Source of the DNA: a virus
Strand: one strand, 5' to 3'
Virus record (IMG/VR): IMGVR_UViG_3300046690_000724
Span: 1-22,430 of that record
DNA length: 22,430 nt
The translations under genes were made by a program, and so were the position numbers. Under the pieces are notes generated by a model that saw only the letters and a list, made by a program, of their open reading frames with translations, was not told the DNA's origin and did not search any database. This document shows, piece after piece, positions 5,437-22,122 of this stretch (positions are counted from its first letter, which is position 1; every line of letters begins with the position of its first letter).

Positions 5437-6873
5437 TCAGAGGTCCAGTTCGTCGAGCTTGAAGGCGTTGCGGATGAGGAAGGGGTTCTTGTCCTCGTGC
5501 TCGGTGACGAAGCCGGTCGAGCGGAAGGGGCGCGACATGCAGGCGTAACGGACTTCATCCACGGCGTGGTCCTCCGAGTCGGTATCGAGGTCCTCGGGGT
5601 TGTGCTCCGAGTGCTGCATCATCGGCAGGGTGCGGATGGTATCACGACAGGTATCGAGGAAGTAGATCATCGGGCGTCCGTCGGCGTCGCCCCGCAGCCG
5701 AGCGCGGACCTGGTCCCAGCCGCCCATGCGCTTATCGCGGCTGACGCGGGCGTTGTCGGCGCGGCGGAAGAAGGCGCCGGCCCTGCCGAGGGTCTCGCCA
5801 ATGGAAGGGCCGGAGATGACGGCGAAGGCCGCCGGGTCCAGCACCCCGTAGGCGATATCCTCGCGATTGTCGCGCGCCACGATGCCGGCGCCCACCATTT
5901 CGGCGGGAAGGCGGAGGCCCTCGTTGGCGGCGGCGGCGCCATACCACTCGCGGTAGCGGACAATCGCACCGCGAGGCAGGATTGTTTGCCGGCTAAGGAT
6001 TGGGAAATCATCCTGCACGTGAGCCCACCAGCCGACAGAGAAAGGCTTCGCGCTGCCCCAGTCCATGGAACGGAAACGGACCCAGTCGGCAGGGATACGG
6101 AAGGCTTCGAGCACGTGCCGGCGGCGGTCGCCCTCCAGCCAGGCGCGGACGAGGGCCTCGGAGCCACTGGCGCGCAGCCTGTTGATATAGCCGGGGTCGT
6201 TCTTGAGCAAGGCGGGGTTGTCGGTGACCTTGGCCGGGATGAAGACACGGGTGAGGCCGGTGCGGGGATCGGTGGTGGGGGTCATCGGGCCGAGGTCGAT
6301 GGCCCACTGCTTGACCCAGTGGTGGCCGGGGCCGCCGGGGTTGCAGGTGGCGCGGAACTGGCACTTGATACCCGGCACGGCGCTGCGCAGGGTGGCGAAC
6401 AGCTTGAAGATCGCCTTGGAATCGGCGTACTGGGTCAGTTCCTCGACGTAGACGCGGGTCAGCGACCAGCCCTGGTAGTTCTGGGCGTCGGAGTCGGATT
6501 CGAGGTAGGCCATGTTGAGCATGGCGCCGCCCTGGAAGCGGAAGAACTTCTTCTGGTCGTTCCACTGGGCGGCGCTGCCGTACATTTGCTGGGCGGTCTC
6601 GATGGTGTCCTTCAAATCCTCGCGGGTCTTGCGCACCATCAGGCCCCTGGCGTGAGGGCCGTGGCGCTCGGCGTGGAGCCAGAACTCGCCCAGCGTCGCG
6701 TAGCTCTTACCGCCGCTTCTTCGTGAAACCCCCGACCCCCGCTAACTCAATAGCGGGGGTCGGGGGCCTCTTGCGCCTCCATAGATAACAGCGTCGAAGG
6801 GGGCTTTGAGGAATGCGACTTGAGGACCGGGTTGGGGTTTGAACCCAATCACGACCTTCTGGGGTTGGGGCAT
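5437..6873 (-). CDS. terL: Terminase large subunit, interrupted in its P-loop by a 51-nt insert
   Basis: The ATG at 6873 (AGGA upstream) starts MPQPQKVVIGFKPQPGPQ and reaches FDAVIYGGAR. It then runs into a hairpin-forming insert and an in-frame TAG at 6744-6742. In the same frame the sequence resumes as SGGKSYATLGEFW and continues to 5437. Omitting 6768-6718 gives residues G33-A-R-S-G-G-K39-S40, a perfect Walker A. Walker B with the catalytic Glu is RVYVEELTQ. The C-terminal nuclease domain shows SMDWGSAKP, FLDT and HAVDEVRYA acidic sites. The product would power and terminate DNA packaging with the portal. After the TAG there is no ATG, GTG or TTG before the ATG at 6639, and a protein starting there (400 residues) would lack the P-loop and be inactive. 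Recoding, RNA processing or a defective gene are the options. Confidence 0.85.
6718..6768 (-). other. 51-nt hairpin insert inside the terminase P-loop codons
   Basis: On the minus strand, a 16-nt arm CCCCCGACCCCCGCTA (6766-6751), loop TTGAGT, and exact complementary arm TAGCGGGGGTCGGGGG (6744-6729) form a perfect stem. GAGG/TTTC outside it adds four more pairs (two of them G-U in RNA), giving about 20 bp. The in-frame stop TAG is the first triplet of the 3' arm. AAGA occurs at both junctions (6772-6769 and 6721-6718), so the codon before the insert and the last codon of the insert are both AGA. The length, 51 nt, keeps the reading frame. It is not a usual intron or IS element. A terminator-like role is possible in principle (GC stem then TTT) but would stop transcription inside terL. 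Confidence 0.85.
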
Positions 6874-11056: not shown

Positions 11057-13348
11057 TCAAGGGCTTAGCGGATTGCCAAAAACATCAAACCCCGCTCCCG
11101 AATTTCCCCTGATTTTGATATCCTGATATACGTTTCCGCTGTTGATCCGCTTCCTTGCGAAGCCCCTTCGGTCCACCAATTCCTTGCCGAACACCGTTAC
11201 GCTGTCGAAAAGCTCGTGATTTCCTTGCTGGTTTCGCCAATCGATCCAGTCCTTGAACAGCACCAATACCAAGACTTCAGAGCCCCTCGCTTTTTCGATC
11301 CTGGCGCCGATCCACTGCCCCAGCAGGTCCTGCTCCCTGAACATCGCGTCGGTCGCGTCCTCGACCTTTTTTGGCTTTATCAGCCGCGTTTTCCGCCACG
11401 CCAGACACCCATCTATCATCCACCGCAGCACCCCCGCCGCCTCGCCTTTCAGCTTGTCCATCAACTCCAGATCGACAACCTTCGGTTGAAAGCGGAACTC
11501 CATCATCATGAAGCGCCGGCGGATCGCTTCGTCGATGCCGCCTGGAAACGTCGGCTGGTGGTTGCCGTATGCCAGCAATTTAAACCTGGGTTCGAAACTG
11601 AATTCGTCCTTGTGCTTGAACCCAGCCGTCACCACACCCCCACCAGTGATATCCTTCAGCAACCCCTCGTCCCACTGCGCCCCAGCCGGCACTTCCGAGA
11701 TGGTGCACAGCCTCGCCCCCGACAGCATCGCCAATTTCGACGTATGCCCCATGCCGTGCGCCTTCTTGATGAACAAATCAGCCACCGGCTTGGCCGCGTA
11801 GTCGCCCATCGCCCACGCCAGCATGTCGGCGAACTTGCTCTTGCCGTTGCCACCCGGCCCGTACAGGAACAGGATTTTCTCCTCGATGGTCAGTCCCGTC
11901 AGGCAGTACCCCGCCCACTGCTGCAGGAACGCCACCGACGCCAAATCCTTTTCCGTCACCTCGTCCAGGAACTTCAGCCAGCGCGGGCACACCACCGCAG
12001 CCGCCGGCGCCACCGCCGTCACCTTCGATATCAAATCCGACGCCTTCGCGGGGACAAGCACCCCCGTCCTGAGGTCGACTGTCCCCCCGGGCGTCCCCAG
12101 CAGCCAGACATCTTTATCGAAATCCGTTTCGCGGCACTGCAGCGCCGGCATCTGCTGGCACAGCCCCTCGACCCCATCCAGGAACGACAGCGTCGTGACG
12201 TCGTGCTCCCCCCGTGCCTTCGGCGGTGCCGACCTCGCCATGGCCATCGCCGCCCGCCCCGCCAGCTTGACCTTCGACGGCAGATGCCGCCACGCCACCC
12301 CGTCGAACTCCGCCCACGCCTTGCGGTCGAGCACGTAGCGCATCCGCCACCCCCACCGCCGCGCGATTTCCTCGGCGTATCGCAACTGCATGGCGCGCGG
12401 CAGGCCGCCGGTCGCCACACCGGGCGCCGGCGGCACCTCGCCGTCGTCGAACACCGACGCCGCCTCCTTGGCCACCCACGCCTCGGCGCCCGCCGGGTCT
12501 GCCGACCGCGCCGCCCGCAGCAACCAGAACCGCCCGATATTCGCATCCCTGAAACTGTCCCACCGCGCCTGTGTCACCTCCGTGACATTACCCCCATACT
12601 TTGCCGCCCACTGGTGGTCGACCCCAACCGCCTTACCCTCCGACGCCCCCCATATCGCCCTGCCGACATTGACGAAGCCATCCCAGTCCGCCACCGCGTT
12701 CGGTATCAGTCCGACCAATTCCGCCAGCAGCGCTTCGTCCTCGACCAGGTCGCCCGCCGACCCTCTTCCCGGCAGCCGTGGCGCCCCCGCCGGCGCCAGT
12801 TTCGTCCACATCTCCCCGACCCTATGCGTCACCCCCGTCCACAGCCCATCGCGCGCCTTCCAGCCGCCGCGCGAGCTCTTGGTGTGCGTCCCCTGCGGCA
12901 GCCGGAAGATACCCGCCGCTCCGGTGTTGTGGGCGCCGCCCCACAGCGCATTGCCGCGCATCGCCAGCCGCAGCGCCTTGTATTCCGCCGGCTCCATCCC
13001 CCCTTCGATGATGAAGCCGTACTGGAACGACCCCGCCGAGCTCTCCACCGTGAACGACGGCTGCAGCGGGAACAGCATGTCGAACCCCTGGCGGTCGATC
13101 TCCTTGCCGACGTCGTCGATGACCAGCACCATCACCCTGCCGGCGTCCTTCCGGTCCTTGCCCGCCGGGATCGCCGCCACGCAATAATACAAATCCATGT
13201 CGTCGGGCAGGTCGAACGTCCCCGCCGGCCCCTCCCGCCCCGGCCTGAGCGTGTCGTCCTTGTCGTAGCGACCCGTGACGACGTAGGCGCCGCCCGTTGG
13301 AAACGCCGCCGACAGCAGCCGCCTGCTGCTTGGCGAGAGCGCGCTCAT
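11057..13348 (-). CDS. Primase-helicase with SF3 (P4/D5-type) helicase domain
   Basis: A 763-residue protein. The C-terminal third is a superfamily 3 helicase: Walker A GPGGNGKS at residues 497-504, Walker B-like RLCTISEVPAG, and the sensor-type KLLAYGNHQPTF, followed by an RRRF arginine region. This matches the phage/plasmid primase P4 family. The N-terminal half looks like a primase-polymerase region (FPLQPSFTVESSAGSFQYGF, IFRLPQGTHTK) as seen in RepB/prim-pol proteins fused to SF3 helicases. It would unwind and prime phage replication forks. The ATG at 13348 overlaps the stop of the zinc-protein gene, whereas the longer frame to 13519 shadows that gene. An inverted repeat just downstream could be its recognition site. 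Family identity is clear; the primase chemistry is inferred. Confidence 0.88.
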   Translation of the reverse strand: MSALSPSSRRLLSAAFPTGGAYVVTGRYDKDDTLRPGREGPAGTFDLPDDMDLYYCVAAIPAGKDRKDAGRVMVLVIDDVGKEIDRQGFDMLFPLQPSFTVESSAGSFQYGFIIEGGMEPAEYKALRLAMRGNALWGGAHNTGAAGIFRLPQGTHTKSSRGGWKARDGLWTGVTHRVGEMWTKLAPAGAPRLPGRGSAGDLVEDEALLAELVGLIPNAVADWDGFVNVGRAIWGASEGKAVGVDHQWAAKYGGNVTEVTQARWDSFRDANIGRFWLLRAARSADPAGAEAWVAKEAASVFDDGEVPPAPGVATGGLPRAMQLRYAEEIARRWGWRMRYVLDRKAWAEFDGVAWRHLPSKVKLAGRAAMAMARSAPPKARGEHDVTTLSFLDGVEGLCQQMPALQCRETDFDKDVWLLGTPGGTVDLRTGVLVPAKASDLISKVTAVAPAAAVVCPRWLKFLDEVTEKDLASVAFLQQWAGYCLTGLTIEEKILFLYGPGGNGKSKFADMLAWAMGDYAAKPVADLFIKKAHGMGHTSKLAMLSGARLCTISEVPAGAQWDEGLLKDITGGGVVTAGFKHKDEFSFEPRFKLLAYGNHQPTFPGGIDEAIRRRFMMMEFRFQPKVVDLELMDKLKGEAAGVLRWMIDGCLAWRKTRLIKPKKVEDATDAMFREQDLLGQWIGARIEKARGSEVLVLVLFKDWIDWRNQQGNHELFDSVTVFGKELVDRRGFARKRINSGNVYQDIKIRGNSGAGFDVFGNPLSP

Positions 13349-13694: not shown

Positions 13695-13729
13695 AAATAG
13701 CCACCCCCAGCCCACCGGGGTGGCTATTT
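13695..13729. terminator. Bidirectional intrinsic terminator after the DNA polymerase gene
   Basis: A 13-bp perfect stem (AAATAGCCACCCC with GGGGTGGCTATTT) encloses a 9-nt loop. On the minus strand it is followed by TATTTCTTATT and lies 42 nt past the polymerase stop. On the plus strand it ends in TTTT. The 13555-13694 stretch beyond it holds no convincing gene, only an orphan GGAGTAACGAC block. Confidence 0.85.
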
Positions 13730-13771: not shown

Positions 13772-15691
13772 CTACTTGCCGAACCGCTTCGATATCTTGT
13801 ATTCCGCCGCCAGCGGCAGCCCACCGGTCCACGCCATCCCCCGAATCATCAAGTCCCTGAGCATGACAGCGCTGCCGGCGGCGTCCCTCTCCGGCACTTC
13901 CCAGACGATTTCATCGTGCACCGTCATGATTGGCGTCCACCCCGCCTGGCGCGACGCCATCACCCCCAGCGCCATGACGTCGCGCGCCACCGACTGCGCC
14001 ATGTTCTCGACCAGCCGGCCACCGTAGGTCCGTTCCGTCCCCCACTTCTTGGTCTTGCCGTTCAAGCCAGAGAACACCAGGCCGCCATCCTCGAAGCGCA
14101 TTCCGTGATAGGCCAGCCGCCCACCACCCGGCTTGCGCAGCATCAACACCCCATCCGGCCCGACGCCGGCGGCCACCCCATGCTCAAGCCATACCGCCAC
14201 CCCCGGCTTCCGGACCGCCGCCTTGACGCAATCCTCGATGGCGTACCAATATCTGACGATCTTGTCGTTGCCGGCCCGCCACCCCCGCAGCGCCGCCTCC
14301 GCCTCCATCGCCGACAGCGTCACCCCATACTGTTCAGCCGCCGTTTGCCTGAACTTCTCCGGCCCCATCCCAAATGAGCAGGCGAGTGTTAAAACCTTGC
14401 CTAGTTGGCGGTCACCAGAGCCCACCGCCGCCGCCTGCATGGTGTAGACGTCCTCACCACCACGAAACGCCTGCAGCACGTCCTCCTGCCCCGCCAGCCA
14501 CGCCGTGATGCGCGCCTCGATCTGACTGAGGTCGACAGACACCAGCACACACCCCCGCCGCGCCACCAGGCAGCCCCGAAGCGCCCCCGAGATCGCCCGC
14601 ATCGGCTTGCTCCAGAACATCCCCAGCCCGCCGGCATCCCTTTCCGCCACGCCGATCACCGTATCGGCGTTCATCCCCTTGTCGGGTCGCGGCAGGTTCT
14701 GCACCTGGATCAGCCTTCCGGCCCAGCGCCCGGTCCGTCCGGCGCCATAAAATTGCAGAAGATTCCGCGCCCGCTCGTCGGCCACCGACGCCACCGCCGC
14801 CATCGCGTCGAGCTTCGCCAGCGAACTCTTCGCCACCGCCTGCCGGATTTCCAGCACCCTGCGCACACGCGGATGCAGCCGCCTGCCTGGCGCCAGCCAC
14901 GCGCCAATCGTCTCCTTCGTCGTGTCCTTCAGGATGACGTTCTCGCCCTGCAGCCACGCCAGCAGCTTCTCCGACTGGGTGCCGGGCGAGGTCACCAGGC
15001 CCTCGGTGAGGTAAGCGCATTCGGCGTCCAGCCGATGCCGCTCCGTTTCCGCCGCCTTCTTCAGCGCCCTGACCGCCACCAGATCGATCAATACCCCCAT
15101 CTGGTTGATCTCGGCGTCGACCACCGACAGCGCCTTCTCCTCCGCCGACAGCGCCGGGATCAGCCGGTCGAGTTCGCGTTCGGCGTCGACGTCCCTTCGG
15201 CAATACGCCGCCAGGTCGTCGAGCATCCGCACCGCCTTGCCGCTGCGGTCCTCATGCCACCCCGTGCCATCCCTACGTGGCTTGCCCATCGCCAGCATCA
15301 GCCGCCGCGCCGTGTCGTCCTTGACCACCGAGGCGCCAATCGCCTCGCCGGCCAGCTGCAGCGATCCCGGCAGCCCCCACGCCAAGGACCTCTGCATGAC
15401 GCAATCCATTTGCGTGTGCTTCAAAACGATGCCGTAATGCAACTTGAGAATGTGCCACTCGAAGTTGGCGTTCCACGCCTTGACGGTGCCACCTTCGGTG
15501 ATGTGATCACGCACCCGTGACGGTAAAGCGGTGCTGGGCCAGACCACGGATTGCGCCGGTTCGTGATCGAACGCCCAGCCGACCACCGTCACCGCGAAAC
15601 CCGGCGTCCTGACGTAATTCTCGACCCCGACCCGCTTGAGGTCGGCGACAGAAAAGCTTTCTAGATCAAGGTGTAGGACGTGCTTGTTCAT
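13772..15691 (-). CDS. Family A DNA polymerase with 3'-5' exonuclease
   Basis: A 639-residue protein. The exonuclease domain shows D9-x-E11 (HLDLES), NANFEWHI and the late YCRRDVDAERELD motif. The polymerase domain has motif A VSVDLSQIEARITAWLAG (Asp near residue 387), motif B RQLGKVLTLACSFGMG (Lys near 431), and motif C TVHDEIVWEV (HDE near 591). The tyrosine common after the motif B lysine is Phe here (SFG), a substitution known to affect dideoxynucleotide discrimination in this family. It is the replicative enzyme for the phage genome. The ATG at 15691 (MNKHVLHLDLES) overlaps the stop of the RHH-like gene; a longer frame to 15718 only adds Ala-rich shadow residues. A terminator follows. 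Confidence 0.95.
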   Translation of the reverse strand: MNKHVLHLDLESFSVADLKRVGVENYVRTPGFAVTVVGWAFDHEPAQSVVWPSTALPSRVRDHITEGGTVKAWNANFEWHILKLHYGIVLKHTQMDCVMQRSLAWGLPGSLQLAGEAIGASVVKDDTARRLMLAMGKPRRDGTGWHEDRSGKAVRMLDDLAAYCRRDVDAERELDRLIPALSAEEKALSVVDAEINQMGVLIDLVAVRALKKAAETERHRLDAECAYLTEGLVTSPGTQSEKLLAWLQGENVILKDTTKETIGAWLAPGRRLHPRVRRVLEIRQAVAKSSLAKLDAMAAVASVADERARNLLQFYGAGRTGRWAGRLIQVQNLPRPDKGMNADTVIGVAERDAGGLGMFWSKPMRAISGALRGCLVARRGCVLVSVDLSQIEARITAWLAGQEDVLQAFRGGEDVYTMQAAAVGSGDRQLGKVLTLACSFGMGPEKFRQTAAEQYGVTLSAMEAEAALRGWRAGNDKIVRYWYAIEDCVKAAVRKPGVAVWLEHGVAAGVGPDGVLMLRKPGGGRLAYHGMRFEDGGLVFSGLNGKTKKWGTERTYGGRLVENMAQSVARDVMALGVMASRQAGWTPIMTVHDEIVWEVPERDAAGSAVMLRDLMIRGMAWTGGLPLAAEYKISKRFGK

Positions 15692-15906
15692 GGCTGCCGC
15701 CGCTGCTTGAGTAGCCACGTCAGTGTCTGCGAGAAGCCTGGTCGGAAACCGAATTGCTTTTCCAGCGTGTCCGTGAGCGCCTCTATTTCGGCCTTGACCT
15801 CGGCGGAAATGTAGATGTTGCGGATTTTCGTCCGCGATGTCGCCTGGTTCCGTTTTCTCGCGGCGTCGCGTTCCTCGGCGGTCTTGTATTTGCGCGGCCT
15901 ACCCAT
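15688..15906 (-). CDS. Small DNA-binding protein, AT-hook/RHH-like
   Basis: A 72-residue protein opening with MGRPRKYKTAEERDAARKRN. GRPRK is an AT-hook-like basic motif, and RNIYISAEVKAEIEALTDTL followed by a second helix (FSQTLTWLLKQRRQ) resembles a ribbon-helix-helix repressor core. It would act as a dimer on DNA, most simply on the divergent promoter region right beside it. GGAGAAACGACACA precedes the ATG, a variant of the early ribosome-binding block. Its stop overlaps the DNA polymerase ATG, so the two are co-expressed. The repressor role is inferred. Confidence 0.72.
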   Translation of the reverse strand: MGRPRKYKTAEERDAARKRNQATSRTKIRNIYISAEVKAEIEALTDTLEKQFGFRPGFSQTLTWLLKQRRQP

Positions 15907-15953
15907 TGTGTCGTTTCTCCATTGAACTTTTTTACGGAAATCACAAATAAGGC

Positions 15954-16006
15954 TTGAACTCTTGAAAGGCAAGCGCTATATCGGGGTTTCAACAATTCAA
16001 CGTCAA
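15954..16006. promoter_or_regulatory. Divergent overlapping promoters sharing one -10 box
   Basis: Rightward: -35 TTGAAC (15954-15959), 17-bp spacer, -10 TATATC (15977-15982), serving the gene at 16023. Leftward: -35 TTGACG (16006-16001), 18-bp spacer, -10 GATATA, which is the same six base pairs read on the other strand. It serves the RHH/DNA polymerase genes. The two polymerase complexes could not bind together. Confidence 0.6.
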
Positions 16007-16022
16007 ACAGGAGTAACGACAA

Positions 16023-16301
16023 ATGAACATTGCCAACATCCACCCCGCCGACGAACTCGGCGCCATTCGCGACGCCATCAAGCAATTGGAAGCCCGCGAG
16101 GCGGTGCTGCGCGCCTATCTCCTGGATGCCTCCAATGAGGAACGCGACGGCGTCAACTTCACCGCCTTCGTCCAGGCTTCCGTCCGCGAGACCCTCGACA
16201 AGCCGGCGCTGATCGCCGCCTTCGGTCGCGATGCCATCGAACCCTACATCAAGGCGAGCGAGGTCCGCAGCCTGAAGCTGGCAAGGAGAAGCGATGACTG
16301 A
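16023..16301 (+). CDS. Unknown 92-residue first gene of the rightward early operon
   Basis: The product (MNIANIHPADELGAIRDAIK...) begins with a long amphipathic helix (residues about 10-35, with QLEAREAVLRAYLL). A globular-looking region follows: FTAFVQASVRETLDKPALIA and GRDAIEPYIKASEVRSLKL. No known domain. The ATG is preceded by CAGGAGTAACGACAA, the canonical early ribosome block, and by the promoter at 15954-15982. Its end overlaps the next gene by 8 nt. Confidence 0.75.
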   Translation: MNIANIHPADELGAIRDAIKQLEAREAVLRAYLLDASNEERDGVNFTAFVQASVRETLDKPALIAAFGRDAIEPYIKASEVRSLKLARRSDD

Positions 16302-21020: not shown

Positions 21021-21560
21021 ATGGTCATGCTCAACACCCCCTACGGAACCCTCGCCTTCCCACAGTTCTTCCAGCCGAAGGAGCGCGCCGAAGGCGGCGA
21101 TGCGGTTTATTCCGGCGCCATCCTGTTCGACAAGGAGCAGCAGAAGCACCCCTTCTTCAAGGCGCTGCGGGACGCCTGCGTCGCCGTCGCCCGAACCAAG
21201 TTCGGCCCCCAGGTCAACATGAAGGAAATCCACATGCCGTTCCGCGACGCCGGCGAGAAGGCCGGCAGGTACAACGGCTACAATGAGGGTGACGTCTTTA
21301 TTAATCCATGGACCAAAAACAAGCCTGATATCGTCGACGCCAACCGCCAGCCGGTGCTGCTGCCGGAGCAGGTCTGGGCCGGACAACTGGTGCGCTTCAA
21401 CGTCTCGCCGTTCGCCTGGATCAACTCCGGCAAGAAGGGCGTCTCCTTCGCCTTGAACCACGTCCAGATCATCAAGGATGGCCCGCGCATCGACGGCAGG
21501 GTGTCGGCTGGCGCCGCCTTCGACGACGGTGAGGTCGCCGGCGTCGACATGTTCCACTGA
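21021..21560 (+). CDS. DUF2815 protein, probable ssDNA-binding protein
   Basis: A 179-residue protein: MVMLNTPYGTLAFPQFFQPK, then YSGAILFDKEQQKHPFFKAL, and VWAGQLVRFNVSPFAWINSG near the C-terminus, with an acidic end (DDGEVAGVDMFH). The pattern matches DUF2815, related to the OB-fold T7 gp2.5-type ssDNA-binding proteins, where an acidic tail recruits partners. It likely coats single strands made by the DUF2800 nuclease and helicases. AAAAGGAATCGAC precedes the ATG. A 53-nt AT-rich gap separates it from the preceding gene, and a terminator follows. Confidence 0.82.
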   Translation: MVMLNTPYGTLAFPQFFQPKERAEGGDAVYSGAILFDKEQQKHPFFKALRDACVAVARTKFGPQVNMKEIHMPFRDAGEKAGRYNGYNEGDVFINPWTKNKPDIVDANRQPVLLPEQVWAGQLVRFNVSPFAWINSGKKGVSFALNHVQIIKDGPRIDGRVSAGAAFDDGEVAGVDMFH

Positions 21561-21598
21561 GCTAGTAAGCCGGACGTTTCGTATTGCGTTGTCCGGCG

Positions 21599-21629
21599 CC
21601 CCCCTGACCCGCCGTCAGGGGGGTTTTTC
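21599..21629 (+). terminator. Strong intrinsic terminator of the rightward early operon
   Basis: CCCCCCTGAC (21599-21608) pairs perfectly with GTCAGGGGGG (21614-21623) around a 5-nt loop, followed by TTTTTC. A second weaker hairpin, CCGGAC/GTCCGG (21570-21596), lies just before it. Confidence 0.9.
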
Positions 21630-21651
21630 TTACTTTGGTTTGAGCACACCG

Positions 21652-22122
21652 ATGCGGTTGGAGCCGATCACTTTTCGCGCGGCCTGCGCCTTTGTCGCGG
21701 CGCTGCACCGGCACAACAAGCCGCCGCGCGGGCACAAATTTTCCATCGGGCTGCGCGATGGCGACCAGCTGGTCGGCGTCGTCATGACCAGTCGTCCGGT
21801 GGCGCGCGCCTTCGATGACGGCCTGACGCTGGAAATTGTGCGAACCTGCACCGACGGCACGACGAACGCCAACTCCATGCTCTATGGCGCGGCGTGGCGG
21901 GCAGCCAAGGCGATGGGATATCTGCGCTGCGTCACCTACACGCAGGCCGAGGAAAGCGGCGCCAGCCTGCGCGCCGCCGGCTGGCGACGAGTCAGGGAAC
22001 TGGAGCCACGCGGTTCGTGGGCGGCCTCGACGAAAGACCCACGCCTGGTGGCGATGCGCGACCCCGTCGGCAATGGCGGCGTCGCGCGGGTGCTGTGGGA
22101 GATTGTCAGCCTCCCAGCCTAG
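21652..22122 (+). CDS. XF1762-like / GNAT-fold acetyltransferase-like protein
   Basis: A 156-residue protein starting MRLEPITFRAACAFVAALHR. It contains the HNKPPRGHKFSIGL stretch, DQLVGVVMTSRPVARAFDDG, TLEIVRTCTDGTTNANSMLY, AAWRAAKAMGYLRCVTYTQ and SLRAAGWRR. This order of blocks is that of the XF1762 phage family, whose fold resembles GNAT N-acetyltransferases. Substrate unknown. The ATG at 21652 lies 23 nt past the terminator T-tract, with only a weak GAG ribosome site; TTG at 21640 is an alternative. It converges with the membrane-protein gene, overlapping by 17 bp. Confidence 0.75.
   Translation: MRLEPITFRAACAFVAALHRHNKPPRGHKFSIGLRDGDQLVGVVMTSRPVARAFDDGLTLEIVRTCTDGTTNANSMLYGAAWRAAKAMGYLRCVTYTQAEESGASLRAAGWRRVRELEPRGSWAASTKDPRLVAMRDPVGNGGVARVLWEIVSLPA

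Follow-up and report, generated by a model that had tools for sequence, protein, structure and literature searches.

A stop-containing hairpin in the terminase P-loop of a soil phage, linked to an HNH endonuclease gene: a candidate mobile ribosome-bypass cassette

How can a phage make its packaging ATPase when the coding sequence of the P-loop is interrupted by an in-frame stop codon? The question is raised by the large terminase gene (terL) of a soil phage, IMG/VR record IMGVR_UViG_3300046690_000724, whose positions 1 to 22,430 form the stretch analyzed here (22,430 nucleotides, nt; referred to as the window). In this gene, one 51-nt hairpin insert splits the Walker A motif (Table 1). Our analysis suggests that the insert probably belongs to a homing-endonuclease cassette that arose independently; the insert would block cleavage, and the harm it does to terL would be neutralised by ribosome bypass from one AGA codon to another.

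Table 1. Features of the terL locus in the window (bp, base pairs)
Feature	Position	Strand	Remarks
terL 5' exon	6769..6873	-	35 codons, ATG (at 6873) to GGAR (codons 32-35); AGA 6771-6769 is the putative take-off codon
51-nt insert splitting Walker A	6718..6768	-	in-frame TAG at 6744-6742; ends with the putative landing codon, AGA 6720-6718
Perfect 16-bp stem with 6-nt loop	6729..6766 (arms 6729-6744, 6751-6766)	-	20 bp when extended, with part of the putative AGA take-off codon paired
terL 3' exon (S/GGKSYATLGEFW...), Terminase_6N	5437..6717	-	Pfam PF03237; has a separate in-frame deletion (39 nt) near 6131
Free-standing HNH-type homing endonuclease gene, 173 amino acids	6883..7404	-	ends 9 nt before the terL ATG; PHROG 374 'HNH endonuclease', E=8e-49

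Read along the minus strand, terL runs through GGA GGC GCA AGA to position 6769, is followed by the 51 nt, and continues with AGC GGC GGT AAG AGC (SGGKS) to a stop at 5437. No inverted repeat in the window is stronger than the perfect stem of the insert; from the base composition, the chance expectation for such stems is ∼1e-4. RNA folding of the insert gives 20 bp with a z-score of -5.25, and none of 200 shuffled sequences was equally stable. Coordinates and folding thus agree with the first-pass annotation, a model reading of the letters alone, which had described a stop-containing hairpin of this size in the P-loop. As that annotation had noted for the window, the insert is preceded by an AGA codon and itself ends with one; the same holds for a second phage described below. 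Among the arginine codons of five genes from the genome of that second phage, AGA is rare (2 of 97). The stem-loop starts at the putative take-off codon, part of which is base-paired at the stem foot. Because AGA is rare and lies partly in the stem foot, a stalled ribosome with the hairpin at its A site is plausible. Between the TAG and the ATG at 6639, which lies past the Walker A motif, there is no in-frame ATG, GTG or TTG, and the earlier claim that no usable start exists there holds; ordinary translation is therefore unable to make TerL with its P-loop.

To place the insert, we compared the locus with its relatives (66 loci from IMG/VR that encode terL relatives; 80 were returned by a profile scan). 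The P-loop is uninterrupted in 89 of 91 distinct P-loop sequences, with a conserved motif of the [YF]GGARGGGK[ST] type. In the nearest relatives, loci L003 and L004 (96% identical), the insert is absent and the P-loop reads GGARGGGKS without a break. One different phage, the 42-kilobase (kb) contig IMGVR_UViG_3300046683_000633 (L006), carries an insert identical to that of the window at 51 of 51 nt. Alignment of these close homologues bears out the view that the 51 nt are an insertion. When they are left out, the L006 gene reads exactly GGARGGGKS, whereas the window would read GGAR-S-GGKS, with Ser where the relatives have Gly. Of the earlier claim that omitting the 51 nt restores a perfect P-loop, the frame and the overall motif therefore stand in the window, and the exact motif is found only in L006.

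Downstream of the insert, the terL genes of the window and L006 are strongly diverged (synonymous pS 0.60, amino-acid identity 88.9%), so they do not represent one misassembled molecule. An assembly artefact, which the first-pass annotation had listed as an alternative, or a dispersed palindromic repeat is extremely improbable: the contigs are metagenomic and the window has another odd indel, but the same insert is present in the independent 42-kb contig, and a second insert, described below, occurs in two separate assemblies. As for a dispersed repeat, a hairpin pattern search found L006 as the only other match in 2.9 million viral contigs and no match in 84,980 prokaryote genomes. A terL scan of genomes gave one prokaryotic locus, in Mesorhizobium, with an intact P-loop. 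Two scans of the viral contigs with gapped P-loop patterns returned nothing new, which is not evidence of absence, as the patterns were poorly chosen: the first demanded a GGN codon before Lys and would miss L015 (see below), and the gap of the second was too short for L006. Since these scans could not recover all known cases, the number of insert-bearing phages given here is a minimum. When 6 kb of the window were compared at the DNA level with cultured phages, no match was obtained.

The same motif is split a second time, by a different sequence. In L015, 40 nt (GCCCTGCCCCCTCTGCTTCGGTAGAGGGGGCAAGCCTAGC) lie 9 nt further along, between GGARGGG and KS; they form one 12-bp stem with a UUCG loop, contain a TAG in the upstream frame, shift the reading frame, and are unrelated to the 51-nt insert. 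The same 40 nt are present in L097, which is 99.97% identical to L015 over 3.2 kb and comes from a separate metagenome assembly (3300037070 for L097, 3300037071 for L015). Without its 40 nt, L015 also reads exactly GGARGGGKS, and both inserts are therefore clean insertions. These features bear on the idea that the inserts are simply translated, with read-through of the 51 nt or frameshifting in the 40 nt adding loop residues to a working TerL. Because 51 is divisible by three, read-through would keep the frame in the window and L006. It would also place 17 residues in a highly conserved P-loop that is uninterrupted in 89 distinct relatives. Moreover, TAG also terminates the endonuclease gene, and so is a normal stop here; the 40-nt version breaks the frame, so read-through is no rescue for L015 and L097 and another mechanism would be needed. 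We regard this idea as very improbable.

The second component of the locus is the endonuclease gene, which the first-pass annotation had missed. The protein of the window shares 85% of its amino acids with that of L006 and 65% with that of L015, where the gene overlaps the terL start. The dN/dS ratio (nonsynonymous over synonymous rates) of the gene is about 0.34. In L003 there is no endonuclease at this place, and a KTSC-domain gene directly abuts terL (the domain was assigned on the L006 homologue). The endonuclease gene thus lies directly upstream of the split gene, and in relatives it is absent together with the insert, as for the mobA/gene 60 locus of phage T4. An HNH gene abuts terL in 3 of 3 insert-bearing lineages and in 0 of 80 distinct intact loci, counting only those intact loci for which 700 nt or more of upstream sequence were present; for the association of endonuclease and insert, Fisher's exact test gives p = 9e-4 (window left out, L013 counted against). 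L013, with an intact P-loop, has a 55%-identical endonuclease gene (1888-2391) that is separated from terL by a KTSC-like gene, and two further intact loci, L044 and L049, have a related endonuclease on the opposite strand. The target of the L013 endonuclease may be elsewhere. Searches with the endonuclease in Pfam, and with the endonuclease and the terminase among PDB sequences, gave no match. No comparable hairpin insert was found within 1 kb of about 55 relatives of the endonuclease family.

The borders of the shared DNA are informative. The window, L006 and L003 are all similar until the end of the KTSC gene; after it, the window and L006 share the endonuclease gene, the 5' exon and the insert. 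Just past the insert all three are close for ∼300 nt, after which identity to L003 is 88-100% for the window, and 57-83% for L006; the first codons after the insert already differ between the window and L006 (AGCGGCGGT versus GGAGGAGGA). Over 90 nt of the 5' exon, the window and L003 show 20 differences, with 19 falling on third positions and leaving the amino acids unchanged; between the window and L006 there is 1. For the 40-nt version, identity of L015 to L013 is 77% in the 5' exon, then 87-95% across the first four 60-nt windows past the insert. Identity thus shifts at the insert in both versions, and the exchanged block therefore ends, on the right, at the insert itself. The edges of the cassette are sharp, the left one at the end of the KTSC gene and the right one at the 3' end of the insert. 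The endonuclease gene and the insert move as one block, as known from T4, and a right edge at the insert is what double-strand-break repair there would leave, which supports a signature of homing. Between the window and L006, the endonuclease genes differ at 12.7% of sites, the insert at 0 of 51 (probability about 1e-3), and the 5' exon plus insert at 3 of 156; either constraint or repeated conversion beside the cut could explain this near-identity.

Taken together, these observations suggest the following mechanism. The cassette would consist of three parts: the HNH homing endonuclease gene, ∼35 codons from the 5' end of terL, and the stop-containing hairpin insert, which would be its target-site part. 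The endonuclease would cut the conserved P-loop coding sequence of phages that lack the insert, and repair would copy the endonuclease gene, the 5' exon and the insert into the recipient, as the sharp-edged block structure supports. The insert would render its carrier resistant to its own nuclease. Ribosomes would stall at the rare AGA at the hairpin foot, release, traverse the 51 nt by sliding and take up translation again after the matching AGA; such a hop would restore G-A-R-(G/S)-G-G-K-S, so that the essential packaging ATPase would still be made. The 40-nt hairpin beside a related endonuclease in L015 and L097 would be the same solution, acquired independently. Efficient sliding in T4 extends to about 56 nt (PMC11194080), and both 51 and 40 nt are within this range. 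The proposal of the first-pass annotation, an independent element in terL of the kind known as byp from mitochondria, thus gains support from L006, L015/L097 and the HNH gene neighborhood, with the hop itself inferred.

Several findings weigh against this mechanism. The TAG is the ninth codon of the insert (8 codons in) and not directly 3' of the take-off codon as in gene 60; the rare AGA codon may be the source of the pause in place of an adjacent stop. The 5' exon encodes essentially the peptide of the insert-free relatives, with no recognisable nascent-peptide signal. In L015, a hop that yields the exact motif needs GGU to AGC, with the first base mismatched, and hops between matching codons (GGG to GGG, or GGU to GGC) would retain KPS as three extra residues in the loop (GGARGGGKPSKS). 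Mitochondrial bypasses tolerate imperfect matches (PMC5009743). Recent conversion, and not constraint, could account for the identity of 5' exon and insert. As the window and L006 share cassette ancestry, the independent cases of the association are effectively two. Finally, the window copy may itself be non-functional, given the Gly-to-Ser change in Walker A and a 39-nt in-frame deletion at 6127-6137 (minus strand), which removes 13 residues (WDVIEGAFFPEFD in L003) kept by L003-L006.

This last point leads to the possibility, also raised by the first-pass annotation, that the inserts simply disrupt terL, the phages being defective or the gene decaying and the hairpin a scar of homing or of faulty break repair. 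The window phage is either a defective variant or locally misassembled at the deletion, and only one terL was found in each record, some of the records being fragments. The terL genes of L006 and L015/L097 are intact apart from the insert (that of L097 is cut short by the contig end). For the 3' exon, dN/dS is 0.085-0.19 (against L006 and L003), and terL downstream of the insert is under purifying selection. In addition, the insert is unchanged in two diverged phages, one insert version was found in two libraries, and the layout recurs. A defective gene is thus conceivable for the window copy; as an account of the inserts in general we consider it unlikely. Because of the separate 13-codon deletion in the window, L006 and L015/L097 are the better exemplars. 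Elsewhere in the window, we observed one perfect 13-bp inverted repeat at 13695-13729 (AAATAGCCACCCC/GGGGTGGCTATTT), possibly a terminator, directly below the gene for DNA polymerase A (13772-15718, minus strand).

Also unlikely, in our view, is that the same mobile cassette is rescued by removing the insert from the RNA before translation, either as a tiny self- or enzyme-processed intron or by an RNA polymerase that skips the hairpin between short repeats. Clean insertions in both versions would fit such removal, and AAGAGG, which is present at both ends of the insert in L006, would permit slippage. L015, however, has no matching end repeats for an exact excision of its 40 nt, and the T4 gap of similar size remains in the mRNA. 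All self-splicing introns known to us are far larger than 51 or 40 nt. A search for introns and ribozymes in Rfam gave no match near the gathering score.

To our knowledge, gene 60 of T4 is the single well-proven long programmed ribosome hop in a phage, and it has long been considered a curiosity. There, mobA lies 5' of gene 60 and a 50-nt gap follows codon 46. T4-related phages lack both mobA and the gap, which presumably gives protection from the nuclease (PMC3014915, PMC5009743); mobA and gene 60 have been described as a mobile bypass cassette (Bonocora et al. 2011, as cited in PMC4592705). The terL locus resembles this system in many respects, with its parts in the same order and similarly spaced: an HNH-type gene lies just 5' of the coding segment of an essential gene, a short 5' coding segment (46 codons in T4, 35 here) precedes a non-coding insert of ∼50 nt, the hairpin foot includes the take-off codon, relatives lack the endonuclease gene and the insert alike, and the UUCG loop recurs, here in the L015 insert. 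The differences are also clear. The target is the terminase here and a topoisomerase in T4, and the DNA is unrelated; terL is not split into two genes; the stop lies inside the hairpin instead of beside the take-off codon; the stem is much stronger (-45.9 versus -15.0 kcal/mol); 51 nt preserve the frame whereas the 50 of T4 do not; and the endonuclease gene is intact whereas the T4 mobA is defective. The gene 60 hop is proven, whereas bypass in terL is predicted from the sequences. Given the displaced stop, the lack of an evident nascent peptide signal and the mismatch in L015, we propose that the cassette works like that of T4 and do not claim it as a proven member.

An earlier predicted bypass in a phage terminase gene concerns the same kind of target, but there the prediction was tied to a UUA codon, regulation was considered possible, and no deleterious insert was involved. 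Like the present inserts, the byp elements of Magnusiomyces mitochondria are inserted blocks skipped in translation, with mobility suspected; unlike them, they number 81 copies in mitochondrial genes and are largely context independent (PMC5009743), whereas here one phage site beside an endonuclease gene is occupied. The endonuclease is of the same family (PHROG 374) as free-standing phage HNH homing endonucleases, which have been reported at boundaries of genetic exchange between phages (PMC10448857).

Further members of this family were seen outside terL. The L006 contig has four more (15550-16023, 21550-21993, 28927-29397 and 32076-32537), which makes this genome unusually endonuclease-rich; relative to the syntenic L003 phage, the extra copies are mostly intergenic insertions. 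These copies have no comparable hairpin insert, and the insertions inspected lie between genes. In L234, one HNH-like gene (12707-13162, minus strand) is inserted between two genes relative to L003, and the first codons of the gene downstream of it are recoded synonymously, resembling the recoded 5' exon of terL.

On balance, we lean towards the view that ribosome bypass in the terminase P-loop became the rescue partner of a homing endonuclease independently of the T4 case, and did so on at least two occasions with unrelated hairpins. A second independent cassette in two sequence versions would make bypass a repeatable escape route for selfish endonucleases that invade essential genes. Comparison would also help to define the requirements of a bypass signal, with respect to hairpin strength, rarity of the take-off codon, displacement of the stop and imperfect landing, and the short cassette lends itself to direct reporter tests. 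If this view is true, endonuclease-linked bypass elements would stand beside introns and inteins as a recurring class of mobile DNA.
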